From: Edaphocola aurantiacus
GTDB taxonomy: Bacteria; Bacteroidota; Bacteroidia; Chitinophagales; Chitinophagaceae
Reading direction: 5' to 3'
Length of the DNA: 64,000 bases
Assembly (NCBI RefSeq): GCF_019797745.1
Contig: NZ_VOSI01000005.1
Span: forward strand, 186,001 to 250,000
The notes below the pieces were generated by a model, which was not told the origin of the DNA, did not search any database, and saw only the letters and a list, made by a program, of their open reading frames with translations. The translations under genes and the position numbers were made by a program. Shown here piece after piece: positions 31,255-56,946 of the stretch. Within the stretch, counting starts at the first letter, position 1; each line of letters opens with the position of its first letter.

Positions 31255-31506
31255 ATTGCTAATGTACTATTAATGATTGCTTGTGTACTATGGATGATTG
31301 CTAGTGTGTTATTAACGATTGCTAGTGTGCTATTAACGATTGCTAGTGTGCTATTAACGATTGCTAGTGTGCTATTAACGATTGCTAGTGTGCTATTAAC
31401 GATTGCTAGTGTGCTATTAACGATTGCTAGTGTGCTATTAATGATTGCTAGTGTACTATGAATGATTGCTAGTGTACTATGAACGATTGCTAGTGTGCTG
31501 GGAATC
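31255..31506. repeat. 21-bp tandem repeat, 12 units
   Basis: Twelve head-to-tail units of exactly 21 bp fill the interval. The five central units are identical (ATTGCTAGTGTGCTATTAAC plus G); outer units carry one to seven changes, so the array is most homogeneous in the middle. Further degenerate units seem to precede it. Because 21 is a multiple of three, both strands show open frames with seven-residue repeats (minus: STLAIVN), but there is no supporting start context or family. There are no spacers, so it is not CRISPR. Confidence 0.9.
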
Positions 31507-46144: not shown

Positions 46145-47254
46145 ATGGATAAGACAAGCACATTCCGGGAGCGATTTAAAGCAGAAGTAACCAAACAGTT
46201 TGAAAACCTGTTTGGTGGCCGGCGCTATTGGTTGCATATCGTAGTGGTCTTGCTGAACATCCTCTTTTTCAGCAGTTCCTACTTCTCCGGTTTTGAGCTG
46301 GGCAAGAATACCGGTTATGGTATTGTGCTGATGATACTGACGGTAATCACTATTCTGCTTGAGGTGTACACCTTCCTGTTATTGATCATCCCATACGGAA
46401 GAGTAAAGCGGAAAGCACTGGTACTGTGGCTTGGATTCCTGCTTAATTTTATACTTTGGTATGCAGTACAAGGAGGACTCATATACCTCATCACACACTT
46501 TGTTGCCGGTAAGAGCTATACCATGGCCTATATTGCCGGGTATTCCTTTGGTCGCGCGATCAGGCTCATATGGCTTTTCTTTGCTATTTACTACTTCTTT
46601 GACCTGTATTACCAGCAGCGACAGTTTCGTAAATACAAGCAGGGACTAAAGGAGCGGCTGGCCGCAGAGAATCGTTTCCTGAAGTCGCAGATCAATCCGC
46701 ATTTTCTGTTTAATACATTGAATAACATCTACTCCAAAGCGCTACATAATGTAACGGAGGCAAGTGGGCTGATCGATAAATTAAAGAACCTGCTGCACTA
46801 TATGCTCTATGAGTGTGAACGGGATTTTGTGCCATTGAAAGGAGAGCTTGCTTTTATACAAAGTTATATTGCCCTGGAAGAAATCCGTAATAAAGCAACA
46901 CGGCTGCAAATAAGGGTACAGATAGATGGTGAGGTAAAAGAACAATTGATTGCACCCCTGCTGATCGTGAACTTTATCGAGAATGCTTTTAAACATGGGG
47001 TAAAGGCGCATACCGAAGAGGCCTTTATCGAACTGCAGCTGCATATAACAGATACCAGGCTGCATATGGAACTGAGCAATACCGTACCGCCGGAAACAGA
47101 CAAGGCACTGGCGATTAAAAGTGAAGGAGGCATTGGCGTAGAGAATGTACGCAAACGCCTCGCCCTGCTGTATCCCGGTGCACATCAGCTTTCTATCAAA
47201 AAAGATAGTACACGCTATACCGTATCGCTAACCCTTAACCTGTTTTCTGCCTGA
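46145..47254 (+). CDS. LytS/YehU-type sensor histidine kinase
   Basis: A 369-residue inner-membrane kinase. Four hydrophobic segments occupy the first ~150 residues with no large periplasmic domain. The His_kinase (PF06580-type) region has the H-box SQINPHFLFNTLNNIYSKAL with phospho-acceptor His186, then LLHYMLYECERDFVPLKGELAFIQSYIALEEIR, and the HATPase N-box LLIVNFIENAFKHGVKAH with the G-box GGIGVENVRKRLALLY. It should phosphorylate the LytTR regulator encoded two genes downstream. The next gene starts 3 bp after its stop and encodes a degenerate relative. Confidence 0.92.
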   Translation: MDKTSTFRERFKAEVTKQFENLFGGRRYWLHIVVVLLNILFFSSSYFSGFELGKNTGYGIVLMILTVITILLEVYTFLLLIIPYGRVKRKALVLWLGFLLNFILWYAVQGGLIYLITHFVAGKSYTMAYIAGYSFGRAIRLIWLFFAIYYFFDLYYQQRQFRKYKQGLKERLAAENRFLKSQINPHFLFNTLNNIYSKALHNVTEASGLIDKLKNLLHYMLYECERDFVPLKGELAFIQSYIALEEIRNKATRLQIRVQIDGEVKEQLIAPLLIVNFIENAFKHGVKAHTEEAFIELQLHITDTRLHMELSNTVPPETDKALAIKSEGGIGVENVRKRLALLYPGAHQLSIKKDSTRYTVSLTLNLFSA

Positions 47255-47256
47255 TT

Positions 47257-48333
47257 ATGAAAGATTTTATTGTAGACTATCACGTCCGGGAGAAACTGAA
47301 GAACTTTTACCTGCGCAAAGGCCGCTGGCTGATACACCTTTTATACTGGGCCTATGTGTATATATTAGGGCAGGTGAGGGCAGAAGAACCGGTATGGGCC
47401 TGGGAGGGTTTCCTGTTGAACTTCCTGTTCGATAACTGGCTCATCATTGTTTTCTACTATCTGTACTGCCTGGTGCTGGTACCGGCCTACCTGAAGAAGG
47501 AGCGTTATGGTCGTTTCTGGACTGTGCTGGCCATAGCATTTATCGTACTGCCTGTTGCTGATATGTATTTTCAACTGCATTTTCAGTCCTATGTACCAAA
47601 GCAGTACCAGGATTATGACTTCACTGATTTTCATTTCAGAAGCCATGTAGGACAGTTCTATTACCTGTATTTTATGAACTTCCTCCTGTTCTCCACCTTC
47701 CTGTTCCTGATGGAGACTGCCGAGAGCCTGACCAATTATCGTGAAGAGCAGGAAGCTGAAGAGGTAAAGCTGCAGCATGAAAAAATGCTGTTGCAGACCA
47801 ATATAGATCCGGCCTTTGTTATGCATGCACTGGATGGTCTTTCTGCCTTATCGGCCAATAGTGATACCCACACGCCCGATGCGGTGATCCGCTTTTCCGA
47901 TATCCTTCGTTATCGCCTCTATCGCAGCAATGAAGCCCGGGTACTGCTTGCAGATGAGATCGCGCAGGTGCGCAACCTTTTCGAATTGCAGAACAGCCTG
48001 TACGGCCCTTGTTGTATTTTAGAAACAGAAGGAGATACCACCGGAAAGTTTATCCCGACCCTGGCTATGGTCAATATTGCCGAGCCTATATGCAATACCT
48101 TTCAGCCCGGTCATGAATGGCAGCTGATTATGTACCTGCTTATCGAGGATAAGCAATTGCATATTGCCATAGAATGGAATGCGGCACTCGCACATAAAGA
48201 ATCTGTACTGGCTGCAATCAGGCAAAACCTCACCCATTTCTATCCAGAAGAGTCAGCCGTACTGGATACAGAACTGATGGACTATAACTATAGCATACGC
48301 ATCAGCCTGCCCATGCATTATACAGCTACATAA
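47257..48333 (+). CDS. Catalytically degenerate LytS-type kinase homologue (pseudokinase)
   Basis: A 358-residue protein with the layout of its upstream neighbour: four hydrophobic N-terminal segments, a coiled linker (YREEQEAEEVKLQHEKMLLQ), then a kinase-like region. The H-box is degenerate: where PHFLFN is expected it has DPAFVMHALD, so the phospho-acceptor His is Ala186. The following FSDILRYRLYRSNEARVLLADEIAQVRNLFELQ keeps the family pattern, but the ATP-binding N-box is lost (NIAEPICNTFQPG) and no Gly-rich box is visible. The reading frame is intact, which argues against simple decay. I infer a regulatory partner that may dimerise with the active kinase. Confidence 0.85.
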   Translation: MKDFIVDYHVREKLKNFYLRKGRWLIHLLYWAYVYILGQVRAEEPVWAWEGFLLNFLFDNWLIIVFYYLYCLVLVPAYLKKERYGRFWTVLAIAFIVLPVADMYFQLHFQSYVPKQYQDYDFTDFHFRSHVGQFYYLYFMNFLLFSTFLFLMETAESLTNYREEQEAEEVKLQHEKMLLQTNIDPAFVMHALDGLSALSANSDTHTPDAVIRFSDILRYRLYRSNEARVLLADEIAQVRNLFELQNSLYGPCCILETEGDTTGKFIPTLAMVNIAEPICNTFQPGHEWQLIMYLLIEDKQLHIAIEWNAALAHKESVLAAIRQNLTHFYPEESAVLDTELMDYNYSIRISLPMHYTAT

Positions 48334-48336
48334 AGC

Positions 48337-48367
48337 TTGTCTGCTACGGGATTTACTCCTATCTTTG
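48337..48367 (+). promoter_or_regulatory. Internal promoter for the LytTR regulator
   Basis: TTG at 48337-48339 and TATCTTTG at 48360-48367 are 20 nt apart, fitting the Bacteroidota consensus. The regulator start lies 28 nt downstream. It overlaps the gap just after the pseudokinase stop. Confidence 0.6.
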
Positions 48368-48395
48368 GTAAGCACCTTTTGTACTTAGAGAAAAA

Positions 48396-49124
48396 ATGAA
48401 CTGCTTAATCATTGATGATGAACCCCTGGCTATTGATATCATTGCGGCGCATTGTGCCCAACACAGCGATATCAAAGTTATAGATACCTGTTGTATGGCT
48501 ATGGAGGCTTTCCAGGCTTTGCACCAGTACGAAATAGATCTTATCTTCCTGGATATAAATATGCCTGTTGTCAGCGGGTTGAATTTTCTTAAATCCTTAA
48601 AAGATCCTCCAGCGGTAATCCTCACCACTGCTTATCCTGATTACGCACTGGAAGGCTATGAATTAAATGTAGTAGACTACCTGCTGAAACCGATTTCGCT
48701 CGAGCGATTCAATATGGCTATTGATAAAGTGCGCCAAAGACTGGCATTGCCCAAACCTGCTGTAGCAGATACGGCGAGCGTGCGTAACCTCAGTGTGGCT
48801 CAAAGCGGACCGGTTAAGAATTTTATCTTTATTAAATCCAATGGCAAACTGGTCAAGCTGGACTTCTCTGATATACATTATATCGAGGGTATGAAAGATT
48901 ACCTGAAGATCTACACACATGATAAAGTGCATGTGATTCATCAGACGATGAAGAATATGGAGGAGCAATTGCCGGAATCATTGTTCAGAAGGGTACATAA
49001 ATCTTATATTATCGCCCTGAATGCCATCAAACAGATTGATGGAAACTGCATAGAAACAGAGAAAGGCGGTGTACCGCTGAGTAGTACTTACAGAGACGCT
49101 TTACTGAAAACGATAGAAAAATAA
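48396..49124 (+). CDS. LytTR-family response regulator
   Basis: A 242-residue regulator: receiver domain (1-~120) with acidic pocket CLIIDDEP, phospho-acceptor Asp53 in LIFLDINMPV, TTAYPDYALEGYELNVVDYLLKPIS (Thr and Lys), and a LytTR DNA-binding domain (~140-242) with FIFIKSNGKLVKLDFSDIHYIEGMKDYLKIYT, FRRVHKSYIIALNAI. LytTR domains bind direct-repeat sites; a candidate pair lies upstream of the first kinase gene. Its stop overlaps the next start by one base (TAATG). Confidence 0.95.
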   Translation: MNCLIIDDEPLAIDIIAAHCAQHSDIKVIDTCCMAMEAFQALHQYEIDLIFLDINMPVVSGLNFLKSLKDPPAVILTTAYPDYALEGYELNVVDYLLKPISLERFNMAIDKVRQRLALPKPAVADTASVRNLSVAQSGPVKNFIFIKSNGKLVKLDFSDIHYIEGMKDYLKIYTHDKVHVIHQTMKNMEEQLPESLFRRVHKSYIIALNAIKQIDGNCIETEKGGVPLSSTYRDALLKTIEK

Positions 49125-50681: not shown

Positions 50682-51434
50682 ATGTTACTTGTCTACAATA
50701 TATCACTACTCATAATCACCGTCATCGGGGGCAGTATCCCGCTCTGGACCAGCTCCTGGTCTGATAAGCGTATGAAAAACCTGCTGGCTTTTTCCGGTGC
50801 ATATCTCCTGAGTATTACCATGCTGCATCTGATACCTGAATCGGTAGAGAATGTGGGCTTTGCAGCCGGTGGTTATATGTTGCTTGGGTACTTTTTACAA
50901 CAGATACTACAGAAGTTTACCCACGGGGTAGAACATGGTCACCATCATAGTACTGGTCATCAGCATCATTTACCCATTGTAAGTTTGTTTTTTGGTATGG
51001 CCCTGCATGCTTTTGCAGAAGGTATACCATTGGGTACTACCTATCATGAAGATAGTACTGTACCATCTCTGTACCTGGCCATAGCCCTGCATAAACTGCC
51101 GGAAGCCATGCTATTGGTGTCTTTACTGATACACAGCCATCGTTCTAAAAATGCATCTCTGCTGTGGTTATGCCTGTTTGCCCTGCTGACGCCGGTATCC
51201 AGTATGCTGACTCATTATGCAGGCATACAACTGATCTCCTTTGCCACGGCATTGCCATACATCATTGCAGTAGTAACCGGTTCATTCCTCCAGATTGGTA
51301 CTACCATCTTTTTTGAAAGCGGCAGTAATGCACATGATATGTCCTGGCGCCGCTGGATCGTGATCCTCGCCGGTATCGGCATGGCACTCTTATCCGTGAT
51401 CGGGCAGGGGCATGATCACGTTCATGCACACTAA
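50682..51434 (+). CDS. ZIP-family divalent metal transporter
   Basis: A 250-residue membrane protein with about eight helices. The ZIP signature lies in MALHAFAEGIPLGTTYH and IALHKLPEAMLLVSL, the metal-coordinating helices, and a His-rich loop (GVEHGHHHSTGHQHHLP) precedes them, as in many Zn/Fe importers. A second His cluster closes the protein (GQGHDHVHAH). Substrate is probably Zn2+ or another divalent cation. It starts close to a -7 box and ends just before the direct repeats that precede the LiaF-like operon. Confidence 0.9.
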   Translation: MLLVYNISLLIITVIGGSIPLWTSSWSDKRMKNLLAFSGAYLLSITMLHLIPESVENVGFAAGGYMLLGYFLQQILQKFTHGVEHGHHHSTGHQHHLPIVSLFFGMALHAFAEGIPLGTTYHEDSTVPSLYLAIALHKLPEAMLLVSLLIHSHRSKNASLLWLCLFALLTPVSSMLTHYAGIQLISFATALPYIIAVVTGSFLQIGTTIFFESGSNAHDMSWRRWIVILAGIGMALLSVIGQGHDHVHAH

Positions 51435-51438
51435 CACC

Positions 51439-51470
51439 TCATTTACCGAGTATATAATTTCATTTACCGA
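51439..51470 (+). promoter_or_regulatory. Two identical 11-bp direct repeats, 21-bp period: predicted LytTR binding site
   Basis: TCATTTACCGA occurs at 51439-51449 and 51460-51470, identical in all 11 bases and exactly 21 bp apart. The copy next to the promoter ends 5 nt before the -33 TTTG. Size and spacing agree with LytTR sites (AgrA-type: two ~9-bp repeats with a 12-bp gap, ACCG in the core), and the operon they precede encodes a LytTR regulator. Confidence 0.65.
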
Positions 51471-51475
51471 AAGCA

Positions 51476-51508
51476 TTTGGGCCGCGAAATATTCGCGGCC
51501 TACTTTTG
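51476..51508 (+). promoter_or_regulatory. Promoter of the LiaF-like/kinase operon with a palindrome filling the spacer
   Basis: TTTG (51476-51479) and TACTTTTG (51501-51508) form a consensus Bacteroidota promoter with a 21-nt spacer. The spacer is wholly occupied by an inverted repeat (arms 51480-51488 / 51492-51500, core GGCCGCGAA), which could be an operator or the ZIP-gene terminator doing double duty. The first gene starts 39 nt downstream. Confidence 0.65.
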
Positions 51509-51547
51509 TTTCAGAAAATAAAGCACAAATAAATAAATCGAATTTTT

Positions 51548-51919
51548 ATGGAACAGATTTCTCAACCTTACTTCAAGTCCTGCGATACCCGGGCCGACGA
51601 TCGTCTGAGGCAGGTGGCCAAAGGTGGCCTGCTGATTACACTGGGTGTGGCCATCCTGTTGCGCAAGATGCCGGAGACCGCTTACCTCATGCCGGACTGG
51701 CTGTTCGGACCACACACATTGCTGATGCTCCTGGGGCTGTACAATGGCGTGAAGCACCGCTTTAGCAATACCACATGGTTGATTTTAGTTTTAGTTGGTG
51801 TATATTTAGCGCTCAGAAAATATTCAGATATCGGTTTTCATGACCTGAACTTTGTAGGGTTACCGGTAGCGATCGTTGTCGTGGGCATTTACATAATGTT
51901 TAAAAGAAGCAGAAAATAA
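51548..51919 (+). CDS. Small membrane protein (LiaI/LiaF-TM-like)
   Basis: A 123-residue protein: a polar N-terminus (MEQISQPYFKSCDTRADDRL) and four hydrophobic segments (GGLLITLGVAILLR, PDWLFGPHTLLMLLGLYNGV, TTWLILVLVGVYLALR, LPVAIVVVGIYIMF). The layout matches the transmembrane half of LiaF-type proteins, which sense cell-envelope stress. It ends one base before the next start, so the two are surely co-translated. Named function unproven. Confidence 0.7.
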   Translation: MEQISQPYFKSCDTRADDRLRQVAKGGLLITLGVAILLRKMPETAYLMPDWLFGPHTLLMLLGLYNGVKHRFSNTTWLILVLVGVYLALRKYSDIGFHDLNFVGLPVAIVVVGIYIMFKRSRK

Positions 51920-51920
51920 T

Positions 51921-52676
51921 ATGGAACAGCAATATAATTTCGAAGGAGAACAATTCAAGCAACCGACTCCACCTCCGAATAATCCTCTGAACAAACGTAA
52001 TGACAATACCATCATTGGTATCCTTGTTGTACTCTTCGGTATCTTTCTCTTTTTACGGAATACCAATATTATCGAAGGTCCATTCCTGAGGCTGGTTACC
52101 TCCTTCCCGGTATTTATGATCGCAGGTGGTCTGATCCTGGGGGCACGCAACAACTTCCGCCTGGGTGGCTGGGCTGTACTGACAGGAATCGGTATCTTCC
52201 TCTTCCTGCAGAAGCTGCACCTTAATGTAGGTCAGTTTATCCTGCCTACTTTATTAGTGGGTATTGGTATACACCTCCTGGTCAGAAACCGTAACAAAGA
52301 AGCTACAGAGACAAGACAAAAACAATATGGCGGTACCAATGAAGACTACGTAAATATAGATTCTATATTCTCCGGTGCAGACCGCATTGTACAGACCCAC
52401 AACTTTCGCGGGGGCAATGTATCTTCTGTATTCGGTGGGGTAAAGCTGGATTGCAAACAAGCCAACCTGGAAGAAGATGCGGTACTGAACCTGACGGTAT
52501 GTTGTGGTGGCGTGGAACTGATTGTACCGGCCAACTGGATCGTGATCAATGATGCGACCGTGATCCTGGGTGGCGTAGAAGATAAACGCAGACTGGTGAA
52601 TATGACCGGTTATGAAAAAAGACTGATCCTGAGAGGTACTGTGGTATGTGGTGGCATTGATATTAAAAGCTATTAA
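51921..52676 (+). CDS. LiaF-like envelope-stress membrane protein
   Basis: A 251-residue protein: Pro-rich N-terminal ~30 residues, four hydrophobic segments (IIGILVVLFGIFLFLRN, FPVFMIAGGLILG, WAVLTGIGIFLFLQ, ILPTLLVGIGIHLLV), then a C-terminal beta domain with repeating turns SVFGGVKLDC, CCGGVELIVPANW, VILGGVEDKR, VVCGGIDIKSY. This matches LiaF/DUF2154 ('cell-wall-active antibiotic response') proteins; in Bacillus LiaF restrains the LiaSR two-component system. Here the two-component system is LytS/LytTR-type and follows directly (12 bp gap), which suggests a parallel role. Confidence 0.85.
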   Translation: MEQQYNFEGEQFKQPTPPPNNPLNKRNDNTIIGILVVLFGIFLFLRNTNIIEGPFLRLVTSFPVFMIAGGLILGARNNFRLGGWAVLTGIGIFLFLQKLHLNVGQFILPTLLVGIGIHLLVRNRNKEATETRQKQYGGTNEDYVNIDSIFSGADRIVQTHNFRGGNVSSVFGGVKLDCKQANLEEDAVLNLTVCCGGVELIVPANWIVINDATVILGGVEDKRRLVNMTGYEKRLILRGTVVCGGIDIKSY

Positions 52677-52688
52677 CCGCAAAACCTG

Positions 52689-53768
52689 ATGAAGCAAACC
52701 CTATCAGCAAACAACACAAATATAATTGTCTCGGTATTTCTTCTGGTATTGAGCATAGTAGAGGCATATTGGCTTATGGTCAGTATGCACTTTACTTTAG
52801 CGACAGCTGCCAGCCTGGTACTGATTGTGAATGTAACACTGTTCGCCCTGTTCTACCTTACTTCCCAGACAAGACTGGGCTGGTTGCGGGAACAAAATAT
52901 ACCGGTGCTGATCGTACAGAGTTTTCTCTATGCGATTGTCTGTATATTCACGGTTAAATGGACCTTTGACGGATTGTTCCCAGAGGTACAACTGATCCCG
53001 CTTTGGGGCAATGCCTTTTTTATCCTGGGCATTACTTCCTGGATATTACTGTCTTTCTTTTCTGTGATCCATCACCTGAGTAAGATCGTAGCGGCACAAA
53101 AACAGCAATTACATGTAGAGAACCATGTACAACAATTAAAGAACGATGCAGAACTGTTCAAACTGAGGCAGCAACTGCATCCGCACTTCTTATTCAACAG
53201 CCTCAACTCTGTCAATGCACTGATCGGCGGCAATCCCAAACTGGCGCGGGAGATGCTGATGAAGCTCTCTACATTCCTGAGGCAAACCCTCAAAAAAGAA
53301 GATGATCAGCTGGTATTATTGTCGACCGAACTGGAAGAGCTGCACCTGTACCTGGATATTGAAAAAGTAAGATTCGGTGATCGCCTGCAGGTAGAAGAGT
53401 CTATACCCGAGCAACTTTCTGAGATCAGGATACCTCCGTTTCTGCTGCAACCGTTGGTAGAGAATGCAATTAAATTCGGACTCTATGGCACTTTAGGTAA
53501 TGTGCTGATCTCCATCACCGTTACAGAGATGGAGCACTTTTTTAAATTTGAAATCACCAATCCTTTTGATAAAGAAAGCATAGCGCCCAAGGGTACAGGC
53601 TTCGGACTCAAGTCCATTGCCCGCAGGTTGTACCTGCTCTATGCCCGTAACGACCTGCTCAAAACAGAACGGATCGAGGGCGGGCAGCCGGAGGATATGG
53701 ATACCTTCTTCGCCCGCTTATTTATACCCAAGGAAACAATATTGCCTGAACAGGCGCAAACGAACTGA
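52689..53768 (+). CDS. LytS-type sensor histidine kinase (LiaF-like operon)
   Basis: A 359-residue kinase with four hydrophobic N-terminal segments (residues ~12-125), a helical linker (IVAAQKQQLHVENHVQQLKNDAELFKLRQQL), and the His_kinase region: LHPHFLFNSLNSVNALIGG (phospho-acceptor His166), LSTELEELHLYLDIEKVRFGDRL, N-box PPFLLQPLVENAIKFGLYG and G-box GTGFGLKSIARRLYLLY. The partner regulator starts 17 bp downstream. With LiaF-like proteins upstream, envelope or lipid-bilayer stress is the likely input; inferred. Confidence 0.93.
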   Translation: MKQTLSANNTNIIVSVFLLVLSIVEAYWLMVSMHFTLATAASLVLIVNVTLFALFYLTSQTRLGWLREQNIPVLIVQSFLYAIVCIFTVKWTFDGLFPEVQLIPLWGNAFFILGITSWILLSFFSVIHHLSKIVAAQKQQLHVENHVQQLKNDAELFKLRQQLHPHFLFNSLNSVNALIGGNPKLAREMLMKLSTFLRQTLKKEDDQLVLLSTELEELHLYLDIEKVRFGDRLQVEESIPEQLSEIRIPPFLLQPLVENAIKFGLYGTLGNVLISITVTEMEHFFKFEITNPFDKESIAPKGTGFGLKSIARRLYLLYARNDLLKTERIEGGQPEDMDTFFARLFIPKETILPEQAQTN

Positions 53769-53785
53769 TATAAATCCTCTTTATT

Positions 53786-54526
53786 ATGTTGAAATGTATA
53801 CTAATTGATGATGAGCCATTGGCCAGGAGCATGCTCAAAGAAATGCTGCAGGACGTAGACGGAATTGAGATTGTAGGAGAGTGCAGCAATGGGTTTGAAG
53901 GTGTGAAAAGCATACAGGCATTGCAGCCGGATATCGTATTCCTGGATGTGCAGATGCCGAAGATCAATGGTTTTGAAATGCTGGAGCTGCTGGACGAAAA
54001 ACCCAATGTTATTTTTATCACCGCTTTTGACGAGTATGCCGTACAGGCATTTGAAGTGAATGCGATAGATTACTTATTGAAACCCATAGAGCCGGCACGA
54101 TTAACTAAAGCAATTGATCGTATTCGCTCCAAGAGTACTGTGGTGGCAGCACCTAAGGCTGCCGATGAACCGGAGAAGAATATATTCCTGCCGGAACAGA
54201 TGCAAAGGGTAGTGGTAAAGGATAATGGTGAGATCAAGATCATTCCGCTGGCACAGATCCTGTTCCTGGAAGCGGCAGATGATTATGTGAAGATACAGAC
54301 CCAGGATAAGTACTACCTCAAGTACCAGACCATGTCTAAATTTGAACAGCAATTACCACCTGCACAATTTGTGCGCGTGCACCGTTCCTATTTTGTAAAT
54401 GTCACGTATATCAATAAAATAGAGCTGCTCGAGAAAGAACAGTACTGTATTTTGTTAAAGACAGGCCAAAAAATCCCGGTGAGCAAAAGTGGCTATGCAA
54501 AGCTGAAATCTTTCTTGGGCATTTAA
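53786..54526 (+). CDS. LytTR-family response regulator (LiaF-like operon)
   Basis: A 246-residue regulator: receiver with CILIDDEPLARSML, phospho-acceptor Asp54 in VFLDVQMPKINGF, ITAFDEYAVQAFEVNAIDYLLKPIEP, and a C-terminal LytTR domain (RVVVKDNGEIKIIPLAQILFLEAADDYVKIQT, QFVRVHRSYFVNVTYINKIELL). It is the obvious partner of the kinase upstream and the best candidate to bind the 21-bp-spaced repeats at 51439-51470, closing an autoregulatory loop. The promoter of the next gene overlaps its 3' end. Confidence 0.95.
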   Translation: MLKCILIDDEPLARSMLKEMLQDVDGIEIVGECSNGFEGVKSIQALQPDIVFLDVQMPKINGFEMLELLDEKPNVIFITAFDEYAVQAFEVNAIDYLLKPIEPARLTKAIDRIRSKSTVVAAPKAADEPEKNIFLPEQMQRVVVKDNGEIKIIPLAQILFLEAADDYVKIQTQDKYYLKYQTMSKFEQQLPPAQFVRVHRSYFVNVTYINKIELLEKEQYCILLKTGQKIPVSKSGYAKLKSFLGI

Positions 54527-54545
54527 GCCGCATCAGCTATTTTTG
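54515..54545 (+). promoter_or_regulatory. Promoter of the TonB-dependent receptor gene
   Basis: TTG at 54515-54517 and TATTTTTG at 54538-54545 with a 20-nt spacer, the consensus arrangement. The -33 lies inside the end of the LytTR gene. The ATG is 19 nt downstream. Confidence 0.65.
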
Positions 54546-54563
54546 TTAGAATTTCATATAACG

Positions 54564-56915
54564 ATGAAAAAAACACTTCCACTACTGCTCGTCATAGTGT
54601 TCCCTATATCCCTGCTGGCACAGAAAAGAGTAACCGTAAGCGGTTATATTAAAGATGGCACCAACGGGGAGACCCTGATCGGTGCAAATGTATTTGCCTC
54701 AGAAAGCAAGGAAGGTACCGCTGCTAATACTTACGGGTTCTATTCCCTGAGTCTGAAACCGGGTACTTATACCATTCGGTACAGCAGCATGGGATTAAAA
54801 GACTATGTAGTTAATCTTACGCTGAATAACGATACCACCATTAATGCAGACCTGCAGAATGAGAATAACCGCGACCTTGAAGAGGTAGTGGTAACCGGAG
54901 AGCGTGCAGATAAAAATGTAAGTGGTACACAGATGGGTACCATTGGATTGACTACAGAAAAGATCAAAAAACTACCAGTTGTTTTCGGGGAGTCTGATGT
55001 GCTCAAAGCCATACAACTCTTGCCCGGCGTACAATCTGCCGGTGAGGGTCAGTCGGGCTTTTATGTGCGCGGAGGTGGTCTGGATCAGAACCTGGTGTTG
55101 CTGGATGAGGCTGTGGTATACAATACCGGTCACCTGTTCGGCTTTTTCTCTATATTCAACTCCGATGCCATTAAGAATGTTAACCTGGTAAAAGGTGCGC
55201 CACCAGCCAATTACGGCGGTCGCTTATCTTCTGTACTGGATGTAAACATGAAAGATGGTAATAATAAAAAGTTTGGAGGAGAGGGGGGTATCGGGCTTAT
55301 TGCCTCACGCCTGACCCTTGAAGGCCCGATTGTAAAAGATAAAGGTTCCTTTATGATCTCCGGTCGCAGAACCTATATCGATGTCATCACAAAGCCATTC
55401 CTCAAAGGAAATGCAAAGGGCAGCGGTTATTATTTTTATGATGCCAACCTTAAGGCGAATTATCGCCTGGGCAAAAAAGACCGTTTGTACCTGAGTGGTT
55501 ATTTTGGAAAAGATGTATTCAATTTCAAAAGCCAGAGCGGCGATTTTGATGTAAAGGTACCCTGGGGCAATGCTACAGGAACCCTGCGCTGGAATCACCA
55601 GTTCAATGATAAGCTATTTATGAATGTTTCGGCAATTTATAACAGCTACAACTTCCAGTTTACCGGTGGCCAGAACGATTTATACATTACCCTGAAATCA
55701 GGTATTAGGGACTGGAACGGTAAAGTGGATTTTGACTACTATACTTCCTTCGGACACCATTTCAAATACGGGGTAAACTATACCTATCATACCTTTACGC
55801 CAAGCCAGTTATCCGGCTCTTCGGCAGATTCTATGTTCAGTGTAGACAATCCGTTTATTAAGTATGCTCATGAATCGGCAGTATACCTGACCGATGAGTT
55901 CGACCTGGGACCTGTAGTGAAGATCAATGCAGGTATACGTTACTCCCTGTTCAATCAAATGGGGCCATATACCAATTATACCTATAATGGTAATGGTAAC
56001 AAGATCGACAGTACTACATTCGGCAGCGGTGATCTGGTGAAAACTTATGGTGGCTGGGAACCGAGAATAGGTGCCCGTTTTGCCCTGAGCGAATCGTCTT
56101 CGATCAAAGCAGCGGTGGCCAGAAGTATGCAATACATACACCTGGTTTCCAACAACGGCAGCACCTTACCTACAGATGTATGGATGCCGAGTACACTGAT
56201 TGTACAACCGCAGAAAGCATGGCAATATTCATTGGGCTACTTCCAGAACTTCCTGAACAATGCCCTGGAAACTTCTGTAGAAGTATACTATAAAGACCTT
56301 AAGAATCAGATCGAATATCGTGAAGGCTATACGCCCAATAATGTACGCGATCCGGAAGCAGACCTGGTATTCGGTACCGGACAGGCGTACGGTGCAGAGT
56401 TCTTTGTCAATAAGACCAAAGGAAAATTCACCGGTTGGGTAGGTTATACGCTGGCCTGGACCAACAGGCGTTTTGCCTTATTAAATAATGGCGATCCATT
56501 CCCGGCTAAGTATGACCGCAGACATGATCTGTCGATCGTAGCCAATTATGAGTTTAGCAAAAAATGGAATGCCTCGGCTGTGTTTGTGTATGCCACAGGT
56601 AATGCCATTACACTGCCTACCGGTTATTACTTTATCGACGGTAAGCTGGTGCAGGATTATAGTAAGATCAACCAGTACCGCATATTCCCATACCACCGCT
56701 TAGACCTGTCGGTAAATTATACACCGAGAGCAGACTCAAAGAGAAGAGTCAAAGGAACCTGGTCATTCTCTATATACAATGTATACAGCAGACTGAATCC
56801 TTATCTGCTCTATGTCAGCACGGAAGGTACCCTGCAACAGGGCACCGATGTCAAAGTAAAACAGGTATCCATCTTCCCGATTATACCGAGTATAACATAC
56901 AATTTTAAATTTTAA
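54564..56915 (+). CDS. TonB-dependent receptor
   Basis: A 783-residue outer-membrane transporter. Signal MKKTLPLLLVIVFPISLLA; a carboxypeptidase-D-like regulatory domain (KRVTVSGYIKDGTNGETLIGANVFAS ... NTYGFYSLSLKPGTYTIRYSSMGL); a plug domain (KKLPVVFGESDVLKAIQLLPGVQSAGEGQSGFYVRGGGLDQNLVLLDEAVVYN); and a ~530-residue barrel ending PIIPSITYNFKF with the terminal Phe. There is no SusD-like partner, so it is not a classic SusCD pair. Ligand unknown. I start at the ATG 54564 with the signal peptide; a TTG seven codons upstream lies inside the promoter's -7 box and is ruled out. Confidence 0.93.
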   Translation: MKKTLPLLLVIVFPISLLAQKRVTVSGYIKDGTNGETLIGANVFASESKEGTAANTYGFYSLSLKPGTYTIRYSSMGLKDYVVNLTLNNDTTINADLQNENNRDLEEVVVTGERADKNVSGTQMGTIGLTTEKIKKLPVVFGESDVLKAIQLLPGVQSAGEGQSGFYVRGGGLDQNLVLLDEAVVYNTGHLFGFFSIFNSDAIKNVNLVKGAPPANYGGRLSSVLDVNMKDGNNKKFGGEGGIGLIASRLTLEGPIVKDKGSFMISGRRTYIDVITKPFLKGNAKGSGYYFYDANLKANYRLGKKDRLYLSGYFGKDVFNFKSQSGDFDVKVPWGNATGTLRWNHQFNDKLFMNVSAIYNSYNFQFTGGQNDLYITLKSGIRDWNGKVDFDYYTSFGHHFKYGVNYTYHTFTPSQLSGSSADSMFSVDNPFIKYAHESAVYLTDEFDLGPVVKINAGIRYSLFNQMGPYTNYTYNGNGNKIDSTTFGSGDLVKTYGGWEPRIGARFALSESSSIKAAVARSMQYIHLVSNNGSTLPTDVWMPSTLIVQPQKAWQYSLGYFQNFLNNALETSVEVYYKDLKNQIEYREGYTPNNVRDPEADLVFGTGQAYGAEFFVNKTKGKFTGWVGYTLAWTNRRFALLNNGDPFPAKYDRRHDLSIVANYEFSKKWNASAVFVYATGNAITLPTGYYFIDGKLVQDYSKINQYRIFPYHRLDLSVNYTPRADSKRRVKGTWSFSIYNVYSRLNPYLLYVSTEGTLQQGTDVKVKQVSIFPIIPSITYNFKF

Positions 56916-56918
56916 AAC

Positions 56919-56946
56919 AAGCGGCACACTTCAAAGTGTGCCGCTT
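56919..56946. terminator. Rho-independent terminator of the receptor gene
   Basis: 13-nt arms 56919-56931 and 56934-56946 pair perfectly, followed by a T-rich stretch, starting 4 bp after the stop. Confidence 0.88.

Follow-up and report, generated by a model that had tools for sequence, protein, structure and literature searches.

The stretch of DNA analyzed here, referred to as the window, comprises 64,000 nucleotides of the Edaphocola aurantiacus genome (family Chitinophagaceae; contig NZ_VOSI01000005.1, positions 186,001 to 250,000). It contains two identical direct repeats just upstream of a promoter, which is followed by an operon encoding two LiaI/LiaF-like proteins, a LytS-type sensor kinase and a LytTR response regulator. 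Most of the relatives examined have similar pairs ahead of the matching operon, at the same distance from the promoter, and for this reason the repeats are very probably where the operon's own regulator docks. The site and the operon consist of the following features:

51439-51449, + strand: distal direct repeat TCATTTACCGA, core TTTACCG at 51442-51448 (from sequence and conservation)
51460-51470, + strand: promoter-proximal direct repeat TCATTTACCGA, core TTTACCG at 51463-51469, with its CC at 51467-51468 (from sequence and conservation)
51476-51479, + strand: -33 element TTTG (from sequence; consensus from PMC6847099)
51480-51500, + strand: 9-bp perfect inverted repeat GGCCGCGAA-ATA-TTCGCGGCC, the whole 21-nt promoter spacer (from sequence)
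51501-51508, + strand: -7 element TACTTTTG (from sequence and the PMC6847099 consensus)
51548-51919, + strand: LiaI-like protein with a LiaF-TM domain (Pfam)
51921-52676, + strand: LiaF-like protein with LiaF-TM, and with LiaF-like_C under the Pfam cut-off (Pfam)
52689-53768, + strand: LytS-type sensor histidine kinase, His_kinase PF06580 (Pfam)
53786-54526, + strand: LytTR response regulator (receiver and LytTR domains), the proposed binder of the repeats (Pfam)

The two copies of TCATTTACCGA start 21 bp apart and leave a gap of 10 bp, as read from the sequence and recovered by a repeat search. Five bases (AAGCA) separate the proximal copy from TTTG, and from the first C of the proximal core (51467) to the -7 box, whose first T is at 51501, there are 34 nt. 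The elements at 51476-51508 agree at the sequence level with the primary-sigma promoter consensus of Bacteroidota, TTTG / TAnnTTTG (PMC6847099; papers are cited throughout for the excerpts available, by their PMC identifiers). Transcription is predicted to start near 51513, 4-5 nt past the -7 element. Direct repeats of LytTR regulators typically stand two helical turns apart just upstream of a promoter and are mostly activator sites (PMC4847170, PMC11347149, PMC6193735); those of the window have this arrangement, with a 21-bp period and an end 5 nt before the -33 element. When the whole 3.69-Mb genome was searched for the repeat pair at up to 3 mismatches, the 51439-51470 site was the single match. 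It is also the only case in the window of identical 11-mers 21 bp apart, aside from a tandem array at about 31296-31465.

The domain assignments describe a Lia-like system under the control of a LytS/LytTR pair. LiaF-TM (PF22570) scores 53.9 and 49.9 bits in the proteins of 51548-51919 and 51921-52676, and a two-component system is encoded in the same operon. In the second of these proteins, the C-terminal toastrack domain of LiaF (PF09922) reaches 26.6 bits against a Pfam cut-off of 29. The kinase contains PF06580 (85.9 bits) and the regulator contains PF00072 (92.5 bits) and PF04397 (96.2 bits). The initial annotation, which was made from the DNA alone, had reported identical 11-bp repeats 21 bp apart, 5 nt before TTTG-N21-TACTTTTG and with a palindrome filling the spacer; this is correct base for base. 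Its description of the operon as two LiaI/LiaF-like proteins with a LytS kinase and a LytTR regulator holds by Pfam, though LiaF-like_C falls short of the cut-off.

The site is conserved throughout the genus. In all five genomes, a half-site pair of the form (A/G)CCGA, 21 bp apart and exactly 30 nt before a TANNTTT box, stands ahead of the LiaI gene. The site of Edaphocola flava (G001) is identical to that of the window, palindrome included, and its LiaF-like protein is 98% identical. The exact pattern ACCGA-N16-ACCGA-N30-TANNTTTG occurs at two places in the window's own genome, namely the 51439 site and a position upstream of a gene for a DUF2807 protein (head GIN, PF10988; 133.7 bits) at G000 C1:559 kb. 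This second target recurs, with the exact site before a DUF2807 gene in four of the five genomes (G000, the window's own, G001, G003 and G004; Pfam); the search of the five listed no site before a DUF2807 gene in G002. One exact site precedes a TonB-receptor gene in G003. DUF2807 and the C-terminal domain of LiaF (DUF2154) are both classed as 'toastrack' (PMC11237479).

The same geometry recurs across the family. A relative of the LiaF protein is present in 227 of 294 Chitinophagaceae genomes. Of these, 91 were scored for TTYACCG pairs in the 350 nt that precede the LiaF match; they exclude the genus, stem largely from the upper end of the similarity list and include 20 already viewed earlier. 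Periods 10-33 were compared, with a threshold of at least 12 of 14 letters. At period 21, 84 of the 91 loci carry a pair at this threshold, 67 reach at least 13 letters and 42 are perfect, while every other period yields at most one perfect pair. Among controls at period 21, reversed strings reach at least 12 letters in 2/91 loci and reverse complements in 3/91, none of them perfect; over all periods, each control gives one perfect pair (periods 11 and 24). Many loci have a weak extra half-site halfway between the conserved two, at 10-11 bp: 31-32 of 91 reach 12/14 or more for periods 10 and 11.

These sites fall into two promoter classes. A TANNTTT -7 box follows the second half-site in 83 of the 84 sites, at 51-53 nt in 73 and at 31-32 nt in 10, and one site is without a box. 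The long class has a conserved RCCTAA, whose CC lies exactly 21 bp past the CC of the second half-site. RCCTAA is, as judged from the sequence, a degenerate third half-site, which gives a three-site class, with the Chitinophaga loci L094-L099 among its members; the promoter of the window belongs to the two-site class. With the main spacing of each class, as in the window, 34 nt separate the -7 box from the CC of the nearest half-site (some two-site loci have TC there). The family's conserved -33 T's are about 2 nt closer to the -7 box than the TTTG of the window.

At up to 3 mismatches, the long-class pattern was found in 94/147 family genomes, compared with 8/147 for the reversed control. Among 40 such places not yet matched to a LiaF gene, the next gene is LiaF-like in 18. 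Of the remaining 22, five are CarboxypepD_reg genes, with a TonB Plug domain in L255, L257, L258 and L260 and none in L256; the L260 site falls within a long open frame. The 22 also include TetR genes (L251, L254), a MarR gene (L245; L246 is similar) and two genes for ABC ATPases whose -7 boxes are poor (L267, L279), and the remainder are single or unidentified genes, some surely matched by chance. The three-site-like sites before the five CarboxypepD_reg/TonB-receptor-like genes, the two TetR genes and the MarR gene are candidate extra targets in other genera. A search for the bare pair, taken without a promoter, matched 103/147 genomes and its control also matched many; given this high background, the places were left unclassified and the search was not used.

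Beyond the family, two approaches were taken. A search of 247 Bacteroidia genomes with DNA alone (two half-sites and a -7 box, up to 2 mismatches), which used no protein information, returned 38 places in 32 genomes, against 9 places in 8 genomes for its control. A LiaI/LiaF-like gene lies directly downstream in 11 of 30 loci examined and, by coordinates, in one more (G321), making 12 of the 38; nine of these 12 are outside Chitinophagaceae. In the second approach, 60 of the 61 non-Chitinophagaceae genomes that have a LiaF-like match were scored for the site itself, whether or not a LytTR gene was present. This gave 39/60 loci at 12/14 or better, 21/60 at 13 or better and 11/60 perfect, and neither control gave any at period 21. 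Paired repeats are conserved at the same place in most of the relatives scored, where the initial annotation had proposed to look for them.

The site also travels with the regulator gene. In 30 loci that were read through, a LytTR regulator gene was found in 29 (the exception is L120), and a half-site pair with at least 11/14 letters is present in 29 of the same 30. The lia-linked regulators are 51-99% identical to that of the window, and the paralogs in its own genome are 25-33% identical (8 of 12 scored). When 30 lia-linked regulators and these 8 paralogs were placed in one tree, the ten regulators of two-site loci fell within one fork with support of 87/76, which is not strong. Given that half-sites, 21-bp period and spacing to the -7 box are conserved in front of related operons, and that 29/30 loci have the regulator gene, there is strong support for the proposal, first made in the initial annotation, that this is an autoregulated LytTR-type target.

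The genome contains 13 LytTR domains. In the stretches of this genome near the other 12 LytTR genes, 10 of 12 are without a comparable pair at a -7 box, the exceptions being L153 with one weak match and L049 with a pair; each stretch was scanned in one orientation, L049 in both, and some operon starts possibly lie outside the stretches. With no match in 10 of the 12, a general LytTR site rule for this genome was rejected. The pair in L049 (G000 C4:128438-131501), at about 1503-1566, reads TTCACCaa/TTCACCca, 21 bp apart, and is flanked on one side by a SIMPL (DUF541) gene and on the other by a divergent gene for a TPR-LytS-type kinase. It fits a -7 box in either direction and perhaps acts as one LytTR operator for two divergent promoters. 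The window itself contains another such system at 46145-49124, with one LytTR gene and two genes for LytS-type kinases. Its end lies 2.3 kb upstream of the repeats, and no 21-bp repeat pair at a -7 box was found in it.

In the mechanism that we propose, two regulator molecules would bind the two TTYACCG half-sites on one helix face, 21 bp or two turns apart. The proximal repeat ends 5 nt before the -33 element of a promoter that appears to be of the housekeeping Bacteroidota type, and the bound regulator would help RNA polymerase to start transcription of the LiaI, LiaF, LytS and LytTR genes. The same regulator would also start the distant DUF2807 (toastrack) gene in this genome. The outcome would be positive feedback in an envelope-stress system that resembles Lia and the phage shock protein (PSP) response and is sensed by the LytS kinase, with the LiaF-like membrane protein perhaps holding the system back. 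The direct basis of this model is sequence, gene content, conservation, spacing and co-occurrence, from which we infer binding, activation (not repression), the signal and termination. On this basis, 51439-51470 is most probably the operator through which the regulator of 53786-54526 activates its own Lia/PSP-like envelope operon.

Several results weigh against this interpretation. Seven of the 91 family loci score below 12/14 (L026, L031, L037, L163, L167, L174, L183), as do 21 of the 60 loci outside the family, and closer relatives are over-represented in the family sample because the 91 come mostly from the top of the similarity list. At L120 the pair is good (13/14), but the stretch that was read lacks a regulator gene and no -7 box can be recognised. 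In the regulator tree, three of the eight paralogs are placed among the lia-linked regulators on very long branches, as a result of which a single clade of lia-linked regulators is not shown; four of the twelve paralogs gave no match in identity scoring and were left out. At up to 2 mismatches, the window's own genome contains 11 places compared with 5 for the reversed control, so that its weaker sites are indistinguishable from chance.

The direction of control and the identity of the bound protein could also be otherwise. The regulator might repress the operon until signalled, as does CoxC, a LytTR repressor that acts from three repeats overlapping the -35 (PMC11347149), and the proximal repeat of the window is indeed only 5 nt from the -33 element. 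Nevertheless, the repeats here end ahead of that element without overlap, which makes activation the better guess. The authors of the CoxC work describe binding upstream of -35 and activation as the mode of most LytTR regulators (PMC11347149), and activation is also what was seen for the autoregulatory LytTR operon tested in S. mutans (PMC6193735). We consider repression unlikely. Another of the genome's 13 LytTR regulators could bind the site as well, and the related 21-bp TTCACC/TTCACC pair between the SIMPL gene and another LytS-type gene is in keeping with this. That one of them is the main binder is nonetheless improbable given the co-occurrence of the pair with this regulator's operon and the lack of a comparable pair in 10 of the 12 stretches described above.

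Self-activation by the operon's own LytTR regulator agrees with what is known of related systems, and LytTR autoregulatory repeats as such are already known. In operons of LytTR regulatory systems (LRS), LytTR repeats give positive feedback (PMC6193735), and 51439-51470 matches published LytTR sites in its period and resembles them in its position (PMC6193735, PMC11347149). Two LRS-like operons of Bacteroides have been described in silico, with a DUF2154 membrane protein, 11-bp direct repeats with an 11-bp gap and a TATCTTTG -7 box (PMC6193735). The LRS (HdrRM, BrsRM and the Bacteroides LRS-like operons) resemble the window in their ACC-containing repeats (PMC6193735), and direct repeats that would be autoregulatory lie upstream of the operon promoter here too. 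However, LRS are two-protein systems of a regulator and a membrane inhibitor, with no kinase described in the excerpts of PMC6193735, whereas the operon of the window includes a His_kinase gene and has a LytS-type kinase with a receiver-LytTR regulator. The Bacteroides LRS-like regulators are also membrane proteins, and their half-site and -7 distance differ from those of the window (PMC6193735).

Other systems share single elements. YpdA/YpdB of E. coli likewise pairs a LytS-type kinase with a receiver-LytTR regulator and has a direct-repeat operator, GGCATTTCAT twice, but the YpdB target is a separate gene, yhjX, with no LiaF-like partner in the account given by PMC4847170, unlike the operon of the window. 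CoxC/RcoM has three direct repeats at two-turn spacing by the promoter, like the long class found here; CoxC, however, represses and overlaps the -35 (PMC11347149), whereas the long class has a degenerate third repeat and a promoter of Bacteroidota type. Like the window, LiaFSR/PSP systems encode LiaI/LiaF-TM proteins and a two-component system in a single operon, and the toastrack group includes DUF2807, a gene for which follows this kind of site here. Where the regulator of the window has LytTR, LiaR carries a wHTH domain (PMC11237479). LytTR together with LiaI-LiaF-TM-toastrack proteins is mentioned for Firmicutes (PMC11237479). In a search of the open-access literature, no paper turned up that describes this operator, its three-site class or how widely it occurs in Bacteroidia. 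LytTR binding sites of Bacteroidota are hardly described in the literature searched, the one precedent being the two in silico Bacteroides operons (PMC6193735).

As a broader proposal, we give an even chance that Bacteroidia widely run a Lia/PSP-like response through LytS-LytTR pairs and a conserved self-activating operator. This operator would consist of two or three TTYACCG half-sites in exact 21-bp steps, with the proximal one either strong (two-site) or a degenerate RCCTAA (three-site), and would have changed together with the regulator, in line with the single fork of the ten two-site regulators in the tree. If this is true, having a strong or a degenerate proximal half-site would adjust the cooperativity or the threshold, and toastrack lipoproteins and TonB receptors of the outer membrane would belong to the regulon. 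The analysis yields a testable motif of fixed geometry for a regulator-operon pair of many Bacteroidia families, tied to envelope proteins (LiaF-like, DUF2807 and TonB-receptor-like), and offers a natural comparison between the two-site form of one operator and its three-site form.

The palindrome in the promoter spacer and the end of the operon involve three further features:

50682-51434, + strand: ZIP-family metal transporter gene, the upstream neighbour (Pfam)
54564-56915, + strand: TonB-dependent receptor, downstream of the regulator (Pfam)
56919-56946, + strand: terminator-like hairpin after the TonB-receptor gene (hairpin scans)

The initial annotation had suggested that the palindrome adds a second control, either as a repressor site or as a hairpin that ends transcription of the ZIP gene. 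The comparison of spacers speaks against the former. Among 87 promoters (the window, three others of the genus and 83 of the rest of the family, the identical E. flava not being counted again), the longest perfect spacer stem is the 9 bp of the window; the other 86 have at most 5 bp, near the values for shuffled spacers, and on this ground a conserved operator was rejected. The palindrome is confined to the window's genome and E. flava, and is missing from three of the five genus genomes and from the 83 spacers of other genera. It is not a repeated genomic element either, since a search with up to 2 mismatches in the arms gave only one near-copy, with one mismatch, which forms the core of a long hairpin following the stop of an aldo/keto reductase gene. 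A second operator for the LiaI operon, for which its exact fit to the 21-nt spacer and its identity in E. flava could be cited, is thus very improbable.

The palindrome is instead probably an intrinsic terminator of the ZIP gene that overlaps the next promoter. As RNA it folds strongly (-18.9 kcal/mol, z -4.25), and its hairpin begins 46 nt past the ZIP stop codon with a stem of 11 pairs, counting G-T, followed by CTTTTGTTTC. This is the usual place for hairpins of the window: 20 of its 25 strong hairpins are intergenic, and in 13 of these 20 the distance from a same-strand stop codon to the start of the hairpin is 4-46 nt. The near-copy also sits behind another gene. The main reservation is that the T-run is weak and interrupted. 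In addition, the stem is the shortest and the distance the largest among the 13 hairpins that follow a stop, and the terminator scan overall found 15 sites compared with 10.5 in shuffles. In G003 and G004, despite the same gene order, this region folds no better than shuffles and has no such hairpin. With respect to the operon, the palindrome is most likely a lineage-specific hairpin that lies outside its control and overlaps the promoter by chance. It lies upstream of the predicted start and would therefore not be part of the LiaI mRNA.

The order ZIP, two LiaF-TM proteins, LytS, LytTR and TonB receptor is common to all five genomes of the genus. The ZIP gene was recognised by Pfam in the window and G002-G004 and by resemblance in E. 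flava, the TonB receptor by Pfam in G001-G004, and the intervening genes of the relatives were named by resemblance; 11 loci from a scan of genome contigs served for names and synteny. The TonB-receptor gene possibly belongs to the same transcript as the LiaI operon, in which case the hairpin at 56919-56946 is a possible end of the transcription unit. A -7-like box, TATTTTTG, placed by eye at 54538-54545, lies shortly before the TonB-receptor gene (54564), where an internal promoter is possible. Elsewhere in the window, the tandem array noted above extends over 31255-31499 with 11.7 copies of a 21-bp unit (92% matches) and has open frames of 7-residue repeats on both strands.
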